Part shown: one piece after another, positions 25,942-50,518 of the stretch
How positions within the stretch are numbered: position 1 is the stretch's first letter
Layout of the letters: each line of letters begins with the position of its first letter
Source: Microcaldota archaeon
Lineage (GTDB): Archaea > Micrarchaeota > Micrarchaeia > Anstonellales > Bilamarchaeaceae
DNA length: 64,000 bases
NCBI GenBank assembly: GCA_023129075.1
Contig: JAGMCT010000010.1
Span: forward strand, 1 to 64,000
Reading direction: 5' to 3'
Position numbers and translations under genes: made by a program
The notes under the pieces: model-generated
What the model was told of the DNA's origin: nothing
Database searches by the model: none
Seen by the model: only the letters and a program-made list of their open reading frames with translations

Positions 25942-28900
25942 ATGGGTGACATACGTTTTAAGAGACGAACAGGAAATCTTGAAGAAAAATTAGGAAAGAG
26001 AGTTCCAGTTCCCAAAAGAACCCAGAGTCAACAGATTGATTTGATATATAAAAAAGCAGAGCATTTTGTTGAGGAGAATAAAAGATATGATGGATTGATG
26101 AACAAGGAAGCGGATTTGTTTGCCTGCACCCTTGTTCTTGAGATGATTCAGCAGGAAAAGGCAGTAAAGGAGCAGAAGATTTCCTTTTTGGAGATTGAAA
26201 AACCTTCAGCTTTAATATCTAGGTCTAGAAGAGCCACAAAGCTCGAAGAAGAAATCAAAAATGTTAAAGCAGAAATAGGAAAAATTGAAGAAGAGATTGG
26301 TAAAAAGCACATGGAGATTGATTCTGCTTATGAGCACCATCTTGCTGTGCTGGAGAAGACTTCCGGGATTCCGAATAAGGATATCGAGCCACTCTTTGGC
26401 ATTGCAGTATCCGCAGAGGTTACGGACAAAGCCCTGAAGAATCCATCCAAGGTTTCCATTGCCAAAAAAGCAGGCAGATTCTGGGGCCGTATTACAGGTT
26501 CGGATAGAATAAAAGAAGCAGAGAAGGTTGCAAGAGGTATGCTCAGGTCCCACGAAGCGCGTGCACTTATGGGAGAAACATTTTTCAGCAGGCAGGTATT
26601 TACCAAACTTGGATTGAATCCAGCAGGCAAATTCAAGATAAAAAATCTGGGTGCACTTAATGAATATATTGTTAATGTAAAAAAAGGCTACCCAACTGCC
26701 GAATATGAGATGCTTGCCAATGCAGTAGGGGAAGAGGTTAAGGAAGCGCAGACGAAATTTTATATGAAGGAACTTGGTTTGAAAGAACCAGGATTTATTA
26801 AGAAAAAGGCCTTAAAAGCAAAAAACCTTGGATTAATCCTATTAAAGAAGATAATAGGAGAAAAAATAGAAGGAAAACAAGGTTCTTTGGTCTCAAAGGA
26901 ATTTTGGGAATACACCCAGAAAAATGAAAAGGAATTCATAGAAAACCTGAAGAAACTCATAAATCTTGAAGAGGAGTTTACCCCCAAATTCTCGGACCTT
27001 ATGAAGAAAAGATGGGGCATCTTTCCTAAGGAATATGTAAAACTAAAGAAAGGCGTGGGAATCGGAATCGGAGAGCTGATAGCTGAGCTGGAGAGTCTTA
27101 ATGAATTGGAAAGCCACTTCGGCTTGGACATGGAGGATTTTCTCAAGAAGCATCCTTTCAAGAATTTTGAAAAGGAGTTGGAAAAGATAAGGACCCTTCT
27201 CGCTTCAGGAGAGCCCCTTGGAAAGGCGCTTAGCGAGGCATTCAAGGAAACCAAATTGTTTTCCAGAAGAAAGTTCAGCATGTTGTTCAAAAGAAGATTC
27301 GGAATTGACATAAAGAGATTAACATCTTCGGAAAAACTTTCTTATTTTTCGGATAAACGTGTTTTAAGTCTGCTTGAAGCAGGAAAAACAGAAACCCTTG
27401 GCCAGATTATTGAAAAGGCCATAAGGAAAGAGTCAGTAAATGAGGCAAACCGGCTCGTTAAATTGTATTCTGAAATCGTTGGAAAGGATACAGCTAAGGT
27501 CGTGGAGAGAGATGGAAAACTCCTCCTGCAAAAATCAGAAAAGCTTACCGAACTTTCTAATGAGCAGATAGCCAAAAAGATTTTTGGTGATTTCAAGAAT
27601 GTCTCTAAATATGTAAGTAATGATATGCTGGCTGAAAGAGCAGTTGAATTGAAAGAGCGTATCGGGCTTCTGGAAGCTGAATTGAAAAAGATGGAAGGAA
27701 AGCTCAAACCTTCCGCTCTTAAGAAATTAGAAGAATATATCGGCAGGTTAAAAATATATGAACAGATGATTGTTCTCCTCAAAAAAGGAAACAATAGAGG
27801 AGTAATACTTCTTGCATTACAGGCAGAAGGCAAAACCAGTAAAGAAGCTCTGGAAACGGTTCAGGTATTATTCGGTCCGAAGGGAAAATTCAGACATCTT
27901 GGCTTAAATTTAAAGGATAAAGCCCTCAGCATGGTAGCTGATTTTGAGGAAGGTCTTCTTGGACTGCAGGCAGAAACAGGAAAGAAGCTTCTGAAGATAG
28001 GTGAAAAAGGAGGGTTTGTTTCACCATTTTCCGAAAAAGGAACGGAGGCTTTTTCCAAGGTTGAGATTCTTTCTTCTGATATCCGGGTAAAAATAGAACA
28101 AAAATGGTCCTCCATGCTTGGGGAAAGAAGAATCTCTGTTTTCAGAAGATTCGGAGAAAAGGTTACATCCTTTTTGCGTGCCAAGCCCATCCTTTCCAAG
28201 GAGGTTCTCAATATGTTTCTGGAAGAAATTAGAGAGGTTCCTGGGAAGGCAGTTTCTTCAAGAGAGAAGCTAAGGATGCTGAGGTCTAGGGAATACATGA
28301 AGAAGATTTCATCTCCAATATGGAAGGTTGTCAGGCCTGCAATGAGCGATGCAGCGCTTGTGAGAACAGCACTTGAATCAGGGATGTACAAACAGCGTTT
28401 CCCAAGGATTTCAGGAGTAGGGGTTCTTTTCAGGACAACTATGACCGGAACGACCATTCTTTACACCAAGCGCGCTTTTTTCTTTACCGCAAATACGATT
28501 GCCTATCCTTTTGTTGAGATTGGAAGGGATTTAGGAAACATCAAAACATATGTTTTGGAAAAAGGCAAGGAGTTGTACATGGACAAAGCCCACGGCTGGA
28601 ATCAGTTTTTGAAGAGAGGGAGAGGGGGATTAGGAAAAAAAGCAAGGGCAACAGGCTGGGCTCTTTGGGAAGGAGCATTTGGTTTTGGAAGAGCAGGAAA
28701 AGACCTGGCAAGAGGAGTCCTGAGAAGATGGAAACCACTGGCTGTTTTAACGGTTCTTACTGTTACACCTTATTATATTTACAAAGAATATTCAAGCCCG
28801 GAGGGCACACTCCAGAAATTCTTCGGGAAGGAGGAGGCGCCCACAAGGATTGTTAAGAAAGGCGGAGAAAAGAAATCCGTAGTCCATCCAAGAAGTAAGG

Positions 28901-29208
28901 AATCCCTTGCTAAGTTTAGAGGGGTAGAGTTTGGAGTAAAGAAGAGTATTGGAGAGGACCTTTACAATAAATACAGAAAAGGCATCAGAAAGAGAGCAAG
29001 TGAAGCAGTTAAAAAGAAGGAAGATACGACAAAGGTAATAAAAGAGTTGAAAGAATTGATTTCTCTAACTGAAAGTACTGTTGCTATGCTAAAGAAGACT
29101 GAGCTTGGTATGATTAGTTATGGGGAAGGAGGACTTGAAGAGGATGTTTTTGACGCCCTTATAGATGGCAGTTCTTCTGAAGAAATAGTTAATATTTTTA
29201 AAGAGTAA
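25942..29208 (+). CDS. Giant helical/coiled-coil protein of unknown function with C-terminal hydrophobic segments
   Basis: 1088 aa uninterrupted; K/E-rich helices; hydrophobic segments near 'TTMTGTTILYTKRAFFFTANTIAYPFVEI' and 'WKPLAVLTVLTVTPYYIYKEY'. Confidence 0.8.
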   Translation: MGDIRFKRRTGNLEEKLGKRVPVPKRTQSQQIDLIYKKAEHFVEENKRYDGLMNKEADLFACTLVLEMIQQEKAVKEQKISFLEIEKPSALISRSRRATKLEEEIKNVKAEIGKIEEEIGKKHMEIDSAYEHHLAVLEKTSGIPNKDIEPLFGIAVSAEVTDKALKNPSKVSIAKKAGRFWGRITGSDRIKEAEKVARGMLRSHEARALMGETFFSRQVFTKLGLNPAGKFKIKNLGALNEYIVNVKKGYPTAEYEMLANAVGEEVKEAQTKFYMKELGLKEPGFIKKKALKAKNLGLILLKKIIGEKIEGKQGSLVSKEFWEYTQKNEKEFIENLKKLINLEEEFTPKFSDLMKKRWGIFPKEYVKLKKGVGIGIGELIAELESLNELESHFGLDMEDFLKKHPFKNFEKELEKIRTLLASGEPLGKALSEAFKETKLFSRRKFSMLFKRRFGIDIKRLTSSEKLSYFSDKRVLSLLEAGKTETLGQIIEKAIRKESVNEANRLVKLYSEIVGKDTAKVVERDGKLLLQKSEKLTELSNEQIAKKIFGDFKNVSKYVSNDMLAERAVELKERIGLLEAELKKMEGKLKPSALKKLEEYIGRLKIYEQMIVLLKKGNNRGVILLALQAEGKTSKEALETVQVLFGPKGKFRHLGLNLKDKALSMVADFEEGLLGLQAETGKKLLKIGEKGGFVSPFSEKGTEAFSKVEILSSDIRVKIEQKWSSMLGERRISVFRRFGEKVTSFLRAKPILSKEVLNMFLEEIREVPGKAVSSREKLRMLRSREYMKKISSPIWKVVRPAMSDAALVRTALESGMYKQRFPRISGVGVLFRTTMTGTTILYTKRAFFFTANTIAYPFVEIGRDLGNIKTYVLEKGKELYMDKAHGWNQFLKRGRGGLGKKARATGWALWEGAFGFGRAGKDLARGVLRRWKPLAVLTVLTVTPYYIYKEYSSPEGTLQKFFGKEEAPTRIVKKGGEKKSVVHPRSKESLAKFRGVEFGVKKSIGEDLYNKYRKGIRKRASEAVKKKEDTTKVIKELKELISLTESTVAMLKKTELGMISYGEGGLEEDVFDALIDGSSSEEIVNIFKE

Positions 29209-34123: not shown

Positions 34124-35242
34124 TTAACAGTTGGGACATTGAAGCTGCACGAGGTTTTCATTTGGTAACGGATTCTCATCAATATCTGTTCCGTAAATTG
34201 TCCCAATGTCATTTACCCAGTAGTAATTTGAACCGCTGTCCACTATATAATGTTCTCCAGTTTCAGGGTTGTAAACATTCTCAATGCCAAGGATGTATTC
34301 GTCCCATTTTTTGTTTAATTCATCCAGAGTTTGGCTTCTCATTTCAAATGTTGAGGAGATAATATCTGATATCTCGTTCTGGCTTTGCGCCAGAATCCCC
34401 ATTCTTTTCTGCACTTCAATCTGTTCGCGCGCGGCCCATTCTTCATCAACCTTGAACGAGCGCTGCATGTTCAGCACAAGCAATTCTGTTTTGTTCATCA
34501 GCTCAGCAGGAGCGTAGTATTCCATCACGGATGCGTACCAGATGCCAGTTCCTGATATCTCAATAAGCACGGTCCGCACGACCACTGAAGATTCTATCTC
34601 TTTTCCGTCGCTCTCGTATTCAAAGGTCAGCTCTGCCGCGGACTGCTCTGTAACCAATGGATTACCGCCCATGAGCAGGTCCGGCCGTTCCTTAACCTCT
34701 ACATTCTCTGCTTCAACACCGCTTTCCTCCAGCAGTTCAAGCGCGAAGTCCGAAGCTTCAGCATAGTTTTTCACTACCATTGGATTTGAAACCCCGCCAG
34801 ACGGGTCGTAGAAAGAGCCCTCTGTGAACCCTGTAAATTCCAGCATTGCATTAGGGGTGGCGTACATGTAACCGTACGGGTCCGCAAAAAAGAATCCCTG
34901 CCCGGATGGAGATTTTGCCTCAAATAGCACTGCCGCATCTATGTATGGCCGAACGAGCCCGGATCCCTGGCTCACGGTCCATCCTGAAGGCACCTCCAGG
35001 CTGAAAGCCCCTTCGTTAGGATCCGCGAATATCTTGAATCTTTTTACATTCACCATTGTATACTTTATCTTTGCCTGAGAACTAGGTACTTGGAAATTCA
35101 GGTCCGTGTTCCCCTCTGCGTCCTGTTCCTGTGAGCCGTTTCCTTGAATCCAATACATTCCGGCATCGTGATTCAATGGATTGGTGCAACCAGCGCTTAG
35201 CAGAAGCAAAGCGCAAATAAAGGCAACCTGCAAGAGTTTCAT
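34124..35242 (-). CDS. Putative secreted lipoprotein of unknown function
   Basis: 372 aa; lipobox-like 'MKLLQVAFICALLLLSAGC'; locally higher GC than flanks. Confidence 0.8.
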   Translation of the reverse strand: MKLLQVAFICALLLLSAGCTNPLNHDAGMYWIQGNGSQEQDAEGNTDLNFQVPSSQAKIKYTMVNVKRFKIFADPNEGAFSLEVPSGWTVSQGSGLVRPYIDAAVLFEAKSPSGQGFFFADPYGYMYATPNAMLEFTGFTEGSFYDPSGGVSNPMVVKNYAEASDFALELLEESGVEAENVEVKERPDLLMGGNPLVTEQSAAELTFEYESDGKEIESSVVVRTVLIEISGTGIWYASVMEYYAPAELMNKTELLVLNMQRSFKVDEEWAAREQIEVQKRMGILAQSQNEISDIISSTFEMRSQTLDELNKKWDEYILGIENVYNPETGEHYIVDSGSNYYWVNDIGTIYGTDIDENPLPNENLVQLQCPNC

Positions 35243-44502: not shown

Positions 44503-45264
44503 CTATTCTTTTGAAATCTTCCATATCAACTTAAAATAATTTCTGAAAGAATCCGCGGTTTCCTTATTGTCTATAACTACTGCAGCAGGATTTTCCGTCC
44601 ATATTGCAATCAGTGTTTTGTTCCCGTAAATGTTGATTGCAGTGGGTGTTACAAACTCCCTTGGGATAAACCGGACATTTGCATACTTTTCGCCTTTTCT
44701 GTCCTTTCCTATGCTGTCTTGCAGGTCCTCGTTAATAATAATCCAGAGTTCCACCCCTTTTTCCTCCCTTTTTTGATGAAATTTCTTTATGAACCTCCTG
44801 AATCTTGGAAAAACCTGGGGAACCGTGCTCACTCCAAAAACATGGACTTCATCCCCTCTCTCAACACTCCTCAGCATATCGTCAAATGCACTCTTCATCC
44901 CGTTCCATCCGGTAAAAAATCTTACTTCCTGAGGTTTTTTTCCTTCCTTCTCAAGTGCAAGAATCCCTGGAATCATCTCTTTTATTTTTTTCTTTTGTTT
45001 TTCTATCTTCTTTTCCTTTTCCTCTAGAAGTTCTATCAGCCTGTCAGGAGGAGCAGCTTTGAAGTATTTTTTATTATTCTTTATTATATAGCTTGCAAGT
45101 CCCATGGAAAGCAGTCTTTCCAGGCAGAAGTAGACGGTGGATTTCTGCATCTTTATCTTTGAGATAATACCTGTGGTTGTTGTCTCCCCCAGCCCAATCA
45201 ACGCAAGGTATACATTTGCCTCTCCTTTTGTCAGCCCCAGCTCCTCAAGTTTTTTTGTTTCCAT
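44503..45264 (-). CDS. TrmB-like transcriptional regulator
   Basis: 'LEELGLTKGEANVYLALIGLGETTTTGIISKIKMQKSTVYFCLERLLSMGLASYI' TrmB HTH plus C-terminal domain. Confidence 0.9.
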   Translation of the reverse strand: METKKLEELGLTKGEANVYLALIGLGETTTTGIISKIKMQKSTVYFCLERLLSMGLASYIIKNNKKYFKAAPPDRLIELLEEKEKKIEKQKKKIKEMIPGILALEKEGKKPQEVRFFTGWNGMKSAFDDMLRSVERGDEVHVFGVSTVPQVFPRFRRFIKKFHQKREEKGVELWIIINEDLQDSIGKDRKGEKYANVRFIPREFVTPTAINIYGNKTLIAIWTENPAAVVIDNKETADSFRNYFKLIWKISKE

Positions 45265-45367
45265 GACATTATTGCTCTCTTGGAGTATTTAAACATATGT
45301 TTTTTTCGTCCAGTTAATAGACTACTTAACTATAAATTCATAGTAAGCCATATCTAATAACACCAAA

Positions 45368-46387
45368 GTGATTATTATGAAAGAACAATACATTGAACCC
45401 GAAGAACTGCAGAGGATTATTGAGCCGTTGGTAAAACCGCGGGATTATCTTGAGGAAGAGGTAAAACGATGCGAAAAAGAACTTATAAGACTTTATAATG
45501 GGCATAAATTAGGGCGCATGAGGATTGTTCATGCCCTGCTTGAACTTGGGATTGAGCCCTGTGAAGTAAGGAACACAAAATTTGGGAGGATTGCACTTCC
45601 AGTAAGAACGATTAAGGAAGCATGGAAGATGGTGATGGAGAATGAAGGACTTATAAAAACAGCAGCAAAAGTGATGGGCTATGTCTTCCCTTTCTCTGAA
45701 GATGTACTGCAGACAGTGAGGGAACACATGTTCATAGCGGCCCTGTTCTGGGATAAAAACAAAGCTAAATTTTCAACCTATTTCTTTTCCTGTCTAGGTC
45801 ATTGTAAAAGGCAGATTCTTAAAGAGAGATACCATGCAAAGGTTCCAGTTTACATTATGGAAAGATTGTACAAATTATATAAGATGAAAAAGAAATTTCC
45901 CTGGAAAACCAATGAAGAGATTGCAGAGAAGCTGGGAATTTCTGAGGAAGAACTTGGAAAACTTAAACAAATAAGCAGAATGACTTGGTCCCACTTGGCA
46001 AGGACGGATTTGGATTTTTTCCTGTACCAGGGAGAAGATGACATGGTTCTTACTGAAGGCTGGAGGAAAAAATGGACCCTAAGCAATAGGGTTCTTTCCG
46101 AAGAGCTTGTAGAAAAGCTTGAAACACACAAGCAGATAGAAGAGAGTTTGTACCAGCATGAACTTGAGAATGCAATGGAAGATGCGTTCAAGGTTCTCTC
46201 CCTTGGCAAAAAAATGGTTTTGAAGAAGAGGTTCGGTTTTGAGGATGATAAGGAGCAAACTCTGCAGAAAGTGGGCGACCATTTTGGTGTTACAAGGCAA
46301 AGAGTGGAGCAGATAGAGAAGATTGCCCTGAAAAAACTGCGCGGAGGAAAGACAGGAAAAAAACTCAAAGCATTCTTGGTGAGGTGA
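45368..46387 (+). CDS. Sigma-70 family RNA polymerase sigma factor-like protein (regions 2, 3 and 4)
   Basis: 339 aa; region 2-like 'FWDKNKAKFSTYFFSCLGHCKRQILKERYHAKVPVYIMERLYKL', region 3-like 'KTNEEIAEKLGISEEELGKLKQ', region 4-like 'AFKVLSLGKKMVLKKRFGFEDDKEQTLQKVGDHFGVTRQRVEQIEKIALKKLRG'. Confidence 0.88.
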   Translation: MIIMKEQYIEPEELQRIIEPLVKPRDYLEEEVKRCEKELIRLYNGHKLGRMRIVHALLELGIEPCEVRNTKFGRIALPVRTIKEAWKMVMENEGLIKTAAKVMGYVFPFSEDVLQTVREHMFIAALFWDKNKAKFSTYFFSCLGHCKRQILKERYHAKVPVYIMERLYKLYKMKKKFPWKTNEEIAEKLGISEEELGKLKQISRMTWSHLARTDLDFFLYQGEDDMVLTEGWRKKWTLSNRVLSEELVEKLETHKQIEESLYQHELENAMEDAFKVLSLGKKMVLKKRFGFEDDKEQTLQKVGDHFGVTRQRVEQIEKIALKKLRGGKTGKKLKAFLVR

Positions 46388-46430
46388 TTTTGGGGTTATT
46401 ATTTTAAATCCCACCCTTCAAACAATCCCC

Positions 46431-48737
46431 ATGAAAAAAATTTTTGTTCTCTTTGTTTTAGGATTACTGTTTTTACAGGGTTTTGCAAGTGCGCAGTTCT
46501 TTACTAATGCAGACGACCCTGCAGCACAGGAGGTCCTTGAGAAAACCGCACAATCTCTTGGCTGGCCCACTACTATGGCTCCAAAGACCGAAACAACAGG
46601 TATTGGATATCAGATTTCCCCTTATGGGGCTGTGCAGGACCCTGATATTTTTGCAGCGATTGCAGTTGCACAAAACGATGAGCAGGTTTTCAATATTCTT
46701 AATATACTTCAGGATAATGGGTTCAGGAGAACAACCTACCAGGGAAGGGATGCGGTAATAATGCACCCAGGAGACCAGATATGCAACCCAAAACAAGGAA
46801 CGCAGTTGTGGTGGATTCTTGAATGGGTTAGAGGAGCTGCAACCGTTATTGCACAGGCATTGGGAACAGAAAGTTTTAATGCAGAAGAGATTTGCTTTGA
46901 CTCTTATGAAACATACGGCTGGAGATGCGGAAAATATCTTTTTATTGTGCAGGACCAGACAGATGCTGGAAATGGAGCATCAATAGCAAATAGCCTATAC
47001 TTAAGGGCAGAAGAGGCAAACCTCTGCGGTATAGAGGATTCGGTTGTTATTCTAGTGGAATCCTCAGATAGGTCAGGAGTAAAAACCCTTTCCCATTTCC
47101 AGGATATTGCCCAGGAGGTCAATGCATATTACAGCTACAATGGATATGGAGAAATAGGGTTCACCTACACATTCTTTGATGCTGACGGTGCAATGGGTTC
47201 AGATGACTGGTATACATTGAGCCAGCCAGCCAATTCATACAAATGGAGCAGTTTTATAGGTGCAGCAATAAAAAAAGCATTCACAAACAAGGACCTTCCT
47301 GAACATGTTTATCTTGAAAGGATTGTTGTTGTGCATCCGGGCAAAGGATCTCAGATGGGTGGAGGCCCGAAGGATACCTTCTTCTCTGCATGCATGTGGA
47401 TGAATCCAAGTGAGGTTTATGAGGTCCAGGGGCTGAACAACAAGATAAAGATACATGCAAAAAACGTTGTAATGGTAAGCGAATACGATGAGGTAGGGAC
47501 ATGGGCGCATGAATTCGGCCATACATTATATGGAAAGAATATTCAGCAGAACGGTCCTGGGCAGGTTTACCGCATTGTTGATAGATATAACTATGATAGT
47601 AATCCCTCAAGGAAATACGGTTCAATCTGGTCCTGGGGGCTTATGGGAACAGGAAATTGGTGGGGAAACCCTTCCCAGACCTCGCCGGTTCACATGAGCG
47701 GTTTTACAAAAGAAGCTGCAAATTGGTTAAGGTACAAAACAATAACCGAGTTTGATAAAACCTATACAGAAATCTCTCTTGAAAATAAGAACATGGGAGA
47801 CACCATTCTAAGGATTGATGACCCGCAGAAAGCAGATGCAAGATTCTTTTATATTATGGAAGCAAGGGATTCCTCTGTTGCTTTCGGGGCTCCTGAATCC
47901 GGTGTTGTACTATATAAAGTAGGATATGATACTACATACAATCATTATGTTGTCAATAATATCTGGCCTCAGAAAGGAAAGACAATAGGCAAGGTAAGTG
48001 AAGGCGAATATGTTATACCTACACTCAATTCGGTTTCAGGAAATGGCTCTGAGTACATAAATGTTCCTGCAAAGTTCAAGATTACACTGCAGTCCGAAAG
48101 CACTTCTCCTTACGAGGCAGAGATTGTAGTTGAGGAATACATTCCCCTGAACTTAAATGGTGTTATTACTACACCCAAGGCATTGATGAATTTATTGGGA
48201 GGGCTTATTGCAGGGACCCCTCTTCCAATGGCGCCTCCGGATTCCTTTGCAAACATACTGGGCCCGATACCACAATTGGACCTGCATGCTTATGATTCAT
48301 ATGGAAATCACGTAGGCATGAATTATGAAACCGGAGAATATGAAAACCAGATACCTGGAGCCATTGCTTCAGGAGATTTGAAGGATGATGAGGAATGGAT
48401 TTTCGTTCCGGAAGGTATGGATGTAAGATATGAACTTTCAGCAGAAAGGGCAAAGCAGTATCTTGAGAATAATCCTGAAGATGTTTCGGACTTTGAACCG
48501 GAAAAAGCAGAGCTTACATATGTGAAATTTGATGCATCCGGAGCAATGTATGTTGCCGATGGCGGAACTACAACAGTATCTCCAAATGTGCATACAAACC
48601 TTAAGCCTGCGGATGACCCTTCTCTGGATTATAGACCTGATAATATTCCCGGACTAAACAACAATGAGGAACCGTGCTGCTGCTTCCCTGCATTCATTTT
48701 GCTTGGGTTGGGACTGCTTGCAATAAAATATAAATAA
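46431..48737 (+). CDS. Secreted M6-like (immune inhibitor A-like) zinc metalloprotease with C-terminal anchor
   Basis: 768 aa; signal peptide; 'TWAHEFGHTLYGKN' HExxH; 'WSWGLMGTGNWWGNPSQTSPVHMSGFTKEAANWL' M6-type block; C-terminal 'CCCFPAFILLGLGLLAIKYK'. Confidence 0.8.
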   Translation: MKKIFVLFVLGLLFLQGFASAQFFTNADDPAAQEVLEKTAQSLGWPTTMAPKTETTGIGYQISPYGAVQDPDIFAAIAVAQNDEQVFNILNILQDNGFRRTTYQGRDAVIMHPGDQICNPKQGTQLWWILEWVRGAATVIAQALGTESFNAEEICFDSYETYGWRCGKYLFIVQDQTDAGNGASIANSLYLRAEEANLCGIEDSVVILVESSDRSGVKTLSHFQDIAQEVNAYYSYNGYGEIGFTYTFFDADGAMGSDDWYTLSQPANSYKWSSFIGAAIKKAFTNKDLPEHVYLERIVVVHPGKGSQMGGGPKDTFFSACMWMNPSEVYEVQGLNNKIKIHAKNVVMVSEYDEVGTWAHEFGHTLYGKNIQQNGPGQVYRIVDRYNYDSNPSRKYGSIWSWGLMGTGNWWGNPSQTSPVHMSGFTKEAANWLRYKTITEFDKTYTEISLENKNMGDTILRIDDPQKADARFFYIMEARDSSVAFGAPESGVVLYKVGYDTTYNHYVVNNIWPQKGKTIGKVSEGEYVIPTLNSVSGNGSEYINVPAKFKITLQSESTSPYEAEIVVEEYIPLNLNGVITTPKALMNLLGGLIAGTPLPMAPPDSFANILGPIPQLDLHAYDSYGNHVGMNYETGEYENQIPGAIASGDLKDDEEWIFVPEGMDVRYELSAERAKQYLENNPEDVSDFEPEKAELTYVKFDASGAMYVADGGTTTVSPNVHTNLKPADDPSLDYRPDNIPGLNNNEEPCCCFPAFILLGLGLLAIKYK

Positions 48738-48750
48738 AAAGGAAAAAACC

Positions 48751-50265
48751 CTAAACCAGGGGACAGCAACGTTCCACCGCATTAACAATAGTGTTGCTGT
48801 TTACTAATTGTTCAATTGCTTCAATATCCGGATAAAGTGGTCTGTCTTCTTTTATGAATGGAGAAATCCTCCGTATCACTTCCTTTGCAGAACCCGTTGC
48901 AGAGCCTATCTCTTTTTTCCTCAAATCCAGTGCCTGTGCAGCAGCCATGAATTCAACAGCAATCACCTTCTGTGTGTTCCCAAGAATATTCCTGATTTTA
49001 AGTGCAGTATTAGTGCCCATGGAAACAAAATCTTCCTGGTCTGCTGCTGTTGGTATTGAGCCAATGGAAGTAGGTGTGCAGAGCATTCTATTTTCATTCA
49101 CTAAAAATGCTGCAGTGTATTGTGGAATCATTATGCCAGAATCAAGACCAGCACTTTCAATAAGAAATGCAGGCAGGCCGTTGCTGAGATTTTTATTCAG
49201 CAACCTATTGATTCTTCTTTCAGACATTACAGCCATTGTTGCGATTGAGATTGCAAGCATTTCAAGCGGTATTGCCAATGGAGTTCCCTGGAAATTTGCA
49301 CCTCTGCAATAATACCCGCCTTCTTCACAAGGGATAAATAATGGATTGTCACATGCGCCATTCAGTTCTATTTCCACTTGTGTTTTTACATATTTTATAC
49401 TATCCTTGAGGGTTCCCAACACCTGTGGTATTGACCTTAAGCTGTATGCATCCTGCACCCTTGTTACACCTTTAAGCAATGCTGAATCCTTTAGCAACCC
49501 CCTCATGTTTTTCCCCACTTCAACCGCACCGTTAAAGCCCCGCATTGCAAGCAATTTTTTGTCAAATTGTTCCAGTACTCCAAGAAGCGCTTCAAAACTC
49601 ATGGCTGCAGCTATCTGGGCATTTTTCAAGAGGTTCTCGCTTTCGTATATCTCAAGCGCAGCCAACCCGGCAATAAGGTTTGAACCATTGATTACTGCCA
49701 ACCCGTCTCTTTCTTCATATTCAATAGGTTTAAGACCTCCTTTTTCAAGCGCCTGTTTTGCAGGAATCCTTTTTCCTTCGCATAAACACTCTCCTTCCCC
49801 AAGCGGTACGAGCATCGCCTGTGCAAGCGGTCCCAAGTCCCCTGATGCCCCAACTGAAGCAGGATACATCACCGGAGTTATCCCTTTATTCAGCATTTTA
49901 ATAAGGAATTCCACTACTTCCAGCCGGACACCTGAAACACCTTTGCAGAGCACATTAATCCTTGATGCGATGGCTGCCCTTACAATCTCTTTTTGGAGCG
50001 GCTCGCCAGTACTTGCTGCGTGGCTGTAAACAATCTTTTTTGAGAATGTTTTCAGGTCTTCTCGTTTTAGTTTAACGTTTGCCAGCTCGCCGATTCCGGT
50101 GTTGAGACCATATACAGGCTCGTCTTTCTCCAGAAGTTCTTCAATTACCTTTCTGCTCTTTCTGATTTTTTCCCTGGTCGCTTCATTTATGCTTATCTGT
50201 TCATCTTCCTTTGCTATTTTAGCAAGTTTTTCAACATTGAGTGTTTCTCCATCCATTTCTATCAT
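48751..50265 (-). CDS. hutH: Histidine ammonia-lyase / aromatic amino acid lyase
   Basis: 'YGLNTGIGELANVKL', MIO motif 'SVGASGDLGPLAQAML', 'NGSNLIAG', 'QDAYSLRSIPQVLG', 'GANFQGTPLAIPLEMLAI'; start moved to MIEMDGETLNVEKLA. Confidence 0.9.
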   Translation of the reverse strand: MIEMDGETLNVEKLAKIAKEDEQISINEATREKIRKSRKVIEELLEKDEPVYGLNTGIGELANVKLKREDLKTFSKKIVYSHAASTGEPLQKEIVRAAIASRINVLCKGVSGVRLEVVEFLIKMLNKGITPVMYPASVGASGDLGPLAQAMLVPLGEGECLCEGKRIPAKQALEKGGLKPIEYEERDGLAVINGSNLIAGLAALEIYESENLLKNAQIAAAMSFEALLGVLEQFDKKLLAMRGFNGAVEVGKNMRGLLKDSALLKGVTRVQDAYSLRSIPQVLGTLKDSIKYVKTQVEIELNGACDNPLFIPCEEGGYYCRGANFQGTPLAIPLEMLAISIATMAVMSERRINRLLNKNLSNGLPAFLIESAGLDSGIMIPQYTAAFLVNENRMLCTPTSIGSIPTAADQEDFVSMGTNTALKIRNILGNTQKVIAVEFMAAAQALDLRKKEIGSATGSAKEVIRRISPFIKEDRPLYPDIEAIEQLVNSNTIVNAVERCCPLV

Positions 50266-50269
50266 AGAT

Positions 50270-50518
50270 TCACCCGGTTGTTGGCGTGTACATTGCCCGT
50301 GCCTGCCCGTATTCATCTTCCAATTCTTCCATGGCCTGCTTGTTCTGTTCTGTTGGTTTTTGCTTGTACTGCCTTCTTGCTGAAACCAGTTGTTTGAACA
50401 CTGCAGTTACTTCACCATCCTTTCCAAATGGGTCGTATCTTCTTAGAGAAGCAAATTTCTCCATTCCCACATTTGTTCCATTTCCATTTTCTTTTTTGTT
50501 TTTTTGTTTATTTTTCAT
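50270..50518 (-). CDS. Small basic protein upstream of hutH
   Basis: 82 aa; ATG overlaps the stop of an upstream AbrB-like frame (ATGA-type coupling). Confidence 0.5.
   Translation of the reverse strand: MKNKQKNKKENGNGTNVGMEKFASLRRYDPFGKDGEVTAVFKQLVSARRQYKQKPTEQNKQAMEELEDEYGQARAMYTPTTG

Follow-up and report, generated by a model that had tools for sequence, protein, structure and literature searches.

The stretch of DNA analysed here (the window: 64,000 nucleotides from a contig of a Micrarchaeota archaeon) encodes a protein which is confirmed as a sigma-70 homologue over regions 2-4. With its relatives it forms a separate clade, and this clade, together with the gene arrays and multi-sigma-4 proteins of the relatives, is the most unusual part of the finding and lies beyond the view of a preliminary description of the locus. 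Sigma factors and the TBP/TFB pair are usually regarded as two answers to promoter recognition that exclude each other. Our proposed explanation, which we hold to be about evenly balanced between right and wrong, is that a bacterial sigma has been re-tooled as an initiation factor, accessory or alternative, which binds DNA sequence-specifically and acts beside TBP/TFB without replacing them.

The open reading frame (ORF) occupies 45368-46387 of the forward strand, with 339 residues when counted from the GTG at 45368; an in-frame ATG at 45377 (MKEQYIEPEE..., 336 residues) is the likelier start. The gene and its surroundings comprise the following features:

44503-45264, reverse strand: TrmB-family regulator, divergent neighbour of the sigma gene (TrmB match)
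45293-45286: TATA-like element TTTAAATA of the divergent TrmB gene (from sequence)
45330-45337, forward strand: archaeal TATA-box-like element CTATAAAT upstream of the sigma gene (from sequence)
45377-46387, forward strand: diverged sigma-70 family protein, 336 residues (Pfam, NCBIfam, PHROG, hhalign)
45377-45616, forward strand: N-terminal extension of about 80 residues, no bacterial sigma counterpart detected; the sigma profile match begins at residue 81
45617-45829, forward strand: sigma region 2 equivalent, residues 81-151 (hhalign, residue comparison)
45848-45976, forward strand: weak sigma region 3 equivalent, residues 158-200 (Pfam Sigma70_r3 E 0.005, below cut-off; hhalign)
46160-46342, forward strand: sigma region 4, a helix-turn-helix, residues 262-322 (Pfam Sigma70_r4, 3.7e-14)
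46400-46409: TATA-like element TATTTTAAAT of the protease gene (from sequence)
46431-48737, forward strand: M6-type secreted metalloprotease, downstream of the sigma gene (NCBIfam; TATA-like element)

Region 4 matches Pfam Sigma70_r4 (PF04545) at 52.4 bits (cut-off 24.1), far beyond chance. The protein also matches the RpoD C-terminal domain model TIGR02393 of NCBIfam (1.5e-20), lies just above the cut-off of the sigma-70 superfamily model TIGR02937 (43.2 against 42.9 bits), and finds its best PDB sequence matches in bacterial SigA chains (2.6e-14). A Pfam Sigma70_r2 (PF04542) search with the window protein gave no match. Residues 81-332 align with the PHROG_351 sigma-factor family (9.4e-23), a profile of 16 relatives compared with bacterial RpoD by hhalign scored a probability of 99.7 (E 2e-26, residues 81-336), and Sigma70_r2 was matched independently by four of the 16 family members (best 5.6e-6). 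On account of the PHROG_351 and hhalign results we regard the homology over regions 2-4 as established at the level of sequence; regions 2 and 3 appear detectable through profile methods only, the homology being nevertheless real. The preliminary description had read regions 2 and 3 upstream of a nearly textbook region 4, a reading which the profile comparisons support more weakly than was implied. It had also offered an absence of region 2 and region 4 HMM matches as grounds for abandoning the identification; such an absence was found for the Pfam region 2 model with the window protein alone, and not with the family or with other libraries. The N-terminal extension is common to two close relatives (G009 and G008) and mostly absent, in alignments, from a third (G003).

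A single-sequence AlphaFold2 model of the protein was set aside (pLDDT 45.6). An alignment-based model of modest confidence (pLDDT 71.6) had SigA/RpoD chains as its best PDB matches, but it was built on a viral-contig sigma alignment and is thus biased toward a sigma match and partly circular, and its domain arrangement is untrustworthy (TM about 0.33).

The genome is archaeal. Its 987,661 bases in 25 contigs (93% complete) hold one TBP, one TFB and a TFE-alpha match, together with a single locus for the large subunits of RNA polymerase (RNAP), where Rpo2 and Rpo1 each show the archaeal-type split; a search of this genome for a second, bacterial large subunit found none. The region 4 match, the profile homology and this machinery uphold the earlier identification of a sigma-70 family member on an archaeal chromosome. 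The sigma gene sits on a 78-kb contig with archaeal genes, including SRP54, GatD/GatE and an archaeal S-layer-type protein, and in codon usage it does not stand out from the rest of the window, which disfavours a very recent import. No other sigma-like gene was found in its genome. A second Sigma70_r4 match, on contig 3, was rejected as a 115-residue helix-turn-helix ORF, presumably DUF134-like, and not a sigma.

Across 60 upstream regions, TATA-like hexamers peak between -30 and -26 from the start codons (17 in this bin, 0-8 in the others), which is the picture of leaderless archaeal promoters. Given its own TATA box and this genome-wide peak, the sigma gene is itself most likely transcribed through TBP/TFB. 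Bacterial -35/-10-like sites around it numbered 5, against 2.8 +/- 1.9 in shuffles, which is not meaningful. The metalloprotease is probably independent of the sigma gene's promoter, since it has a TATA-like element of its own. A conserved sigma-TrmB gene pair was considered and demoted: TrmB-type regulators have many paralogues (three copies in the window's genome, G000, and seven in G003); the one that faces the sigma gene in G003, in head-to-head orientation, is yet not the best match; and the neighbours in G008 and G009 differ. The sigma-TrmB link is only suggestive. A conserved neighbour or target gene, sought across the relatives' loci, was not found. Elsewhere in the window of this small archaeal genome, a histidine ammonia-lyase (HutH) scores above the NCBIfam cut-off (48751-50316, reverse strand), and two ORFs of 1088 residues (25942-29208, forward) and 372 residues (34124-35242, reverse) have no Pfam match.

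Relatives were sought in 301 genomes of the class, which are all the genomes of the phylum in the set. More than a tenth of these carry sigma-70 genes of some kind; the family profile matched (1e-5) in 33 and Pfam Sigma70_r2 in 37. Conventional sigma-70 genes occur in G077, G006, G097, G121, G279, G292, G293 and others, sometimes several per genome, and some of those in the phylum lie deep within contigs longer than 100 kb. The tree, built on region 2-4 columns, set 21 rows of the diverged clade beside conventional archaeal sigmas (14), bacterial sigmas (10) and a single sigma from a phage. In it the window sigma was placed with 20 relatives in one clade (support 99/97), all from its own taxonomic family and with no bacterial sequence among them; the conventional archaeal, bacterial and phage sigmas fall outside. 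Within the clade, the window sigma and those of G003, G009 and G008 form a subgroup (95/95) and are single-copy in their genomes, while the remaining members belong to one sister genus (g8) and stand in arrays. A further g8 genome (G030) has a fragment only, which was counted in the profile search and left out of the tree. The family counts at least 43 genomes, of which 10 carry the clade, namely the window's and nine others; the clade is therefore not essential core machinery. Single-protein scans of genome and viral collections with window-type queries returned a distant Clostridia sigma only, and nothing viral.

These results bear on the concern that a bacterial gene has been wrongly joined to an archaeal contig, an artefact to which a protein of bacterial origin in a 25-contig draft would lend itself. 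We find it hardly credible. A chimeric contig is very unlikely because the same diverged clade, free of bacterial sequences, occurs in the nine other genomes, and these independent homologues bring contamination close to refuted. In addition, the 78-kb contig places archaeal SRP54 and GatD/GatE around the gene, so that the flanking-gene check asked for by the preliminary description speaks for an archaeal origin of the contig, while an archaeal TATA box precedes the gene and its codon usage is ordinary.

Residue positions are given below for E. coli RpoD followed by the window sigma, with family counts over the 21 rows of the clade. The two proteins share 20% identity in region 2 (14 of 70 positions). 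Kept are N383 (N89), L386 (L92), D403 (D109) and Q406 (Q112), and in region 2.3 F427 (F132), S428 (S133), T429 (T134) and Y430 (Y135), as well as D126; N383, L386 and D403 are preserved in most rows of the clade, and D403 also in 13 of the 14 conventional archaeal sigmas. At position 419 the aromatic is preserved by exchange (F419 to W125; tryptophan in 20/21 rows, some aromatic in 21/21), and position 430 is aromatic in 19/21. In bacteria, the pocket for the flipped -11 base consists of F419, Y430, W433 and W434, with W433 serving as the wedge (PMC7057261), and wedge dyads rank WW > HW > QR (PMC10216364). The window sigma has lost this W-dyad (W433 to S138, W434 to C139), and its -10 reading residues are replaced (Q437 to H142, T440 to R145). 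Contact with the clamp is made by sigma 403/406/407/409 and beta' R275/E295/A302 (PMC8321222). The changes here are E407 to T113 and N409 to R115 in the sigma and I/L/H in this archaeon's Rpo1' at the three clamp positions; the archaeal flap is 7 residues shorter at the position of the tip helix, and both bacterial docking surfaces differ. Region 4 keeps R584 (R307), R586 (R309) and Q589 (Q312), with E585 changed to Q308 and R588 to E311. Within the family, conservation of region 2 equals or exceeds that of region 4 (mean column information 1.96-2.15 versus 1.81-1.83 bits).

Compared with a functional group 1/2 sigma, the window protein thus has the -11 pocket aromatics (W125, Y135) and lacks W433/W434/Q437/T440, and its clamp contact is incomplete, two of D403/Q406/E407/N409 being kept. 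By this residue comparison and the clamp and flap differences, the flipped-base pocket is partly preserved, whereas changes have affected the wedge, the residues that read the -10 element and some of the contacts that a bacterial sigma makes with its polymerase; the changes at the polymerase interface lie on both sides, in sigma E407/N409 and in clamp R275/E295/A302. A near-textbook character holds for region 4 and does not extend to region 2, and "complete sigma factor" is too strong a term for a protein with these losses.

The main rival to our explanation is a stand-alone DNA-binding repressor or activator, in which the helix-turn-helix of region 4 alone would matter, region 2 would be a relic or a part serving dimerization or ligand binding, and the polymerase would not be contacted. 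We consider this unlikely, although a serious contender. Region 4 is the strongest match of the protein, the W-dyad and -10 reading residues are lost, the bacterial docking surfaces are absent from this archaeon's RNAP, and in some relatives a single region 2 is followed by about eight region-4-like units, which would be hard to use in a holoenzyme. Set against these points are the conservation of region 2 in the family and the retained aromatics of the -11 pocket.

The relatives show further departures from single-copy sigma genes. G016 carries seven consecutive, strongly diverged sigma-like genes (contig 13, 21.9-29.0 kb; L031:3853-11137) with 16-36% pairwise identity; their recognition helices vary between copies, and a C-terminal AGELREHL-like tail is common to most. 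Smaller arrays occur in G024, G027 and G020. The arrays are flanked by genes for a UbiD-family decarboxylase (a UbiD/DUF498 pair in G016) and aconitase X, which belong to the archaeal mevalonate pathway, and lying between these genes they are evidently chromosomal. G020 (L036:7059-10091) and G007 (L073:4727-7705) encode proteins of about 1000 residues in which one N-terminal sigma region 2 is followed by about eight region-4-like units, although region 2 of the G007 protein and some of the region-4-like units give weak signals; the two share 24.5% identity over 881 positions (2e-54). A search of phage and plasmid records for such poly-sigma-4 proteins returned nothing comparable and one single sigma-4 match. 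In two other proteins (698 and 594 residues) a long N-terminal half of uncharacterised kind precedes the sigma unit. A helicase-like protein of G005 (L077:1-2043, G005:C147) has a sigma-4-like domain at its C-terminus.

Diversification of this kind might also befit a conflict gene, that is, a fast-changing protein directed against partner cells or against viruses, which might for instance disrupt bacterial or viral transcription. The low identity among the seven G016 copies points in this direction, as does a weak match to MzaA, which resembles a sigma and belongs to a defence system. We judge it improbable nonetheless: the MzaA match amounts to no more than common sigma homology (60.9 bits versus an NCBIfam cut-off of 800), window-type queries found no relatives in the viral contigs searched, no defence or mobile genes were recognised beside the window sigma, and the arrays are located between core metabolic genes.

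In our favoured reading, a re-tooled sigma working beside TBP/TFB, an ancestor of the archaeal family would have acquired a bacterial sigma-70, RpoD-like in region 4, and its descendants retained it, the transfer presumably having run from bacteria to archaea. Region 4 would dock on a -35-like operator with an altered base preference, region 2 would retain part of the pocket for a single-stranded base, and its changed clamp-facing helix may touch the clamp of the archaeal RNAP, giving the factor a regulatory role beside TBP/TFB. The region 2-4 homology, archaeal machinery, TATA boxes, monophyletic clade, kept aromatics and two-sided interface changes support this explanation. Against it stand the replacement of the bubble-opening W-dyad by S/C, the shorter flap and different docking surfaces, the limited occurrence of the clade in the family, and the lack of a conserved neighbour or target at the loci compared. 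We think it rather unlikely that the family possesses a sigma class of its own, with a re-made region 2 on the RNAP clamp that selects or opens promoters with TBP/TFB or in their stead, and with the arrays and multi-sigma-4 proteins of the sister genus reading different operators.

A monophyletic archaeal sigma clade with an altered polymerase-facing surface makes sigma function on an archaeal polymerase directly testable, and allows the rewiring of a transferred transcription factor to be examined. Sigma diversification can be followed as a natural experiment in the arrays and poly-sigma-4 proteins, and the whole offers an uncommon and testable instance in which a part of the bacterial transcription apparatus adapts to archaea.

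The presence of sigma-70 in DPANN archaea is already known and by itself not new. PMC6126073 credits Rinke et al. 2013 with the first archaeal sigma factors, and many DPANN genomes, especially Woesearchaeota, carry sigma-70 according to PMC8204110, with mis-binning ruled out and no anti-sigma found. The preliminary description, which named the 2013 study, was right to call the gene rare rather than wholly unprecedented, but the prior record is broader than it allowed. Like the DPANN sigma-70 proteins of PMC8204110 (fam00359), the window sigma is encoded on an archaeal chromosome beside TBP/TFB/TFE with no anti-sigma known; the available text gives no account of this clade, of gene arrays or of multi-sigma-4 proteins. 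Conventional archaeal sigmas (G077, G006, G097) come from the same phylum and share regions 2 and 4 with it, but usually retain W434 (10/14), have the DL.Q.G motif more often than the window's clade, and group with bacterial sigmas. The C-terminal sigma-70-like part also matches MzaA of the MZA anti-phage system (PADLOC, 4e-10, 36.6 bits), with the whole-length score far below the NCBIfam cut-off and no MZA partners seen near the gene. As in bacterial group 1/2 sigma-70 (RpoD/SigA, RpoS), the regions run in the order 2-3-4, with an FSTY motif in region 2.3 and RFG...TL..VG..FGVTR.R..QIE..AL.KLR in region 4. Unlike these, the window sigma has no detected regions 1.1/1.2 and a different N-terminal 80 residues, W433/W434, Q437, T440, E407 and N409 are replaced, and its cell has an archaeal RNAP with TBP/TFB. 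The literature searched contained no report of the diverged clade, the array expansion or the poly-sigma-4 proteins, which may still be published. What looks new here is a separate, one-family clade of sigma proteins in which aromatics of the -11 pocket are kept, the W-dyad is gone and the contact with the polymerase is partly lost.
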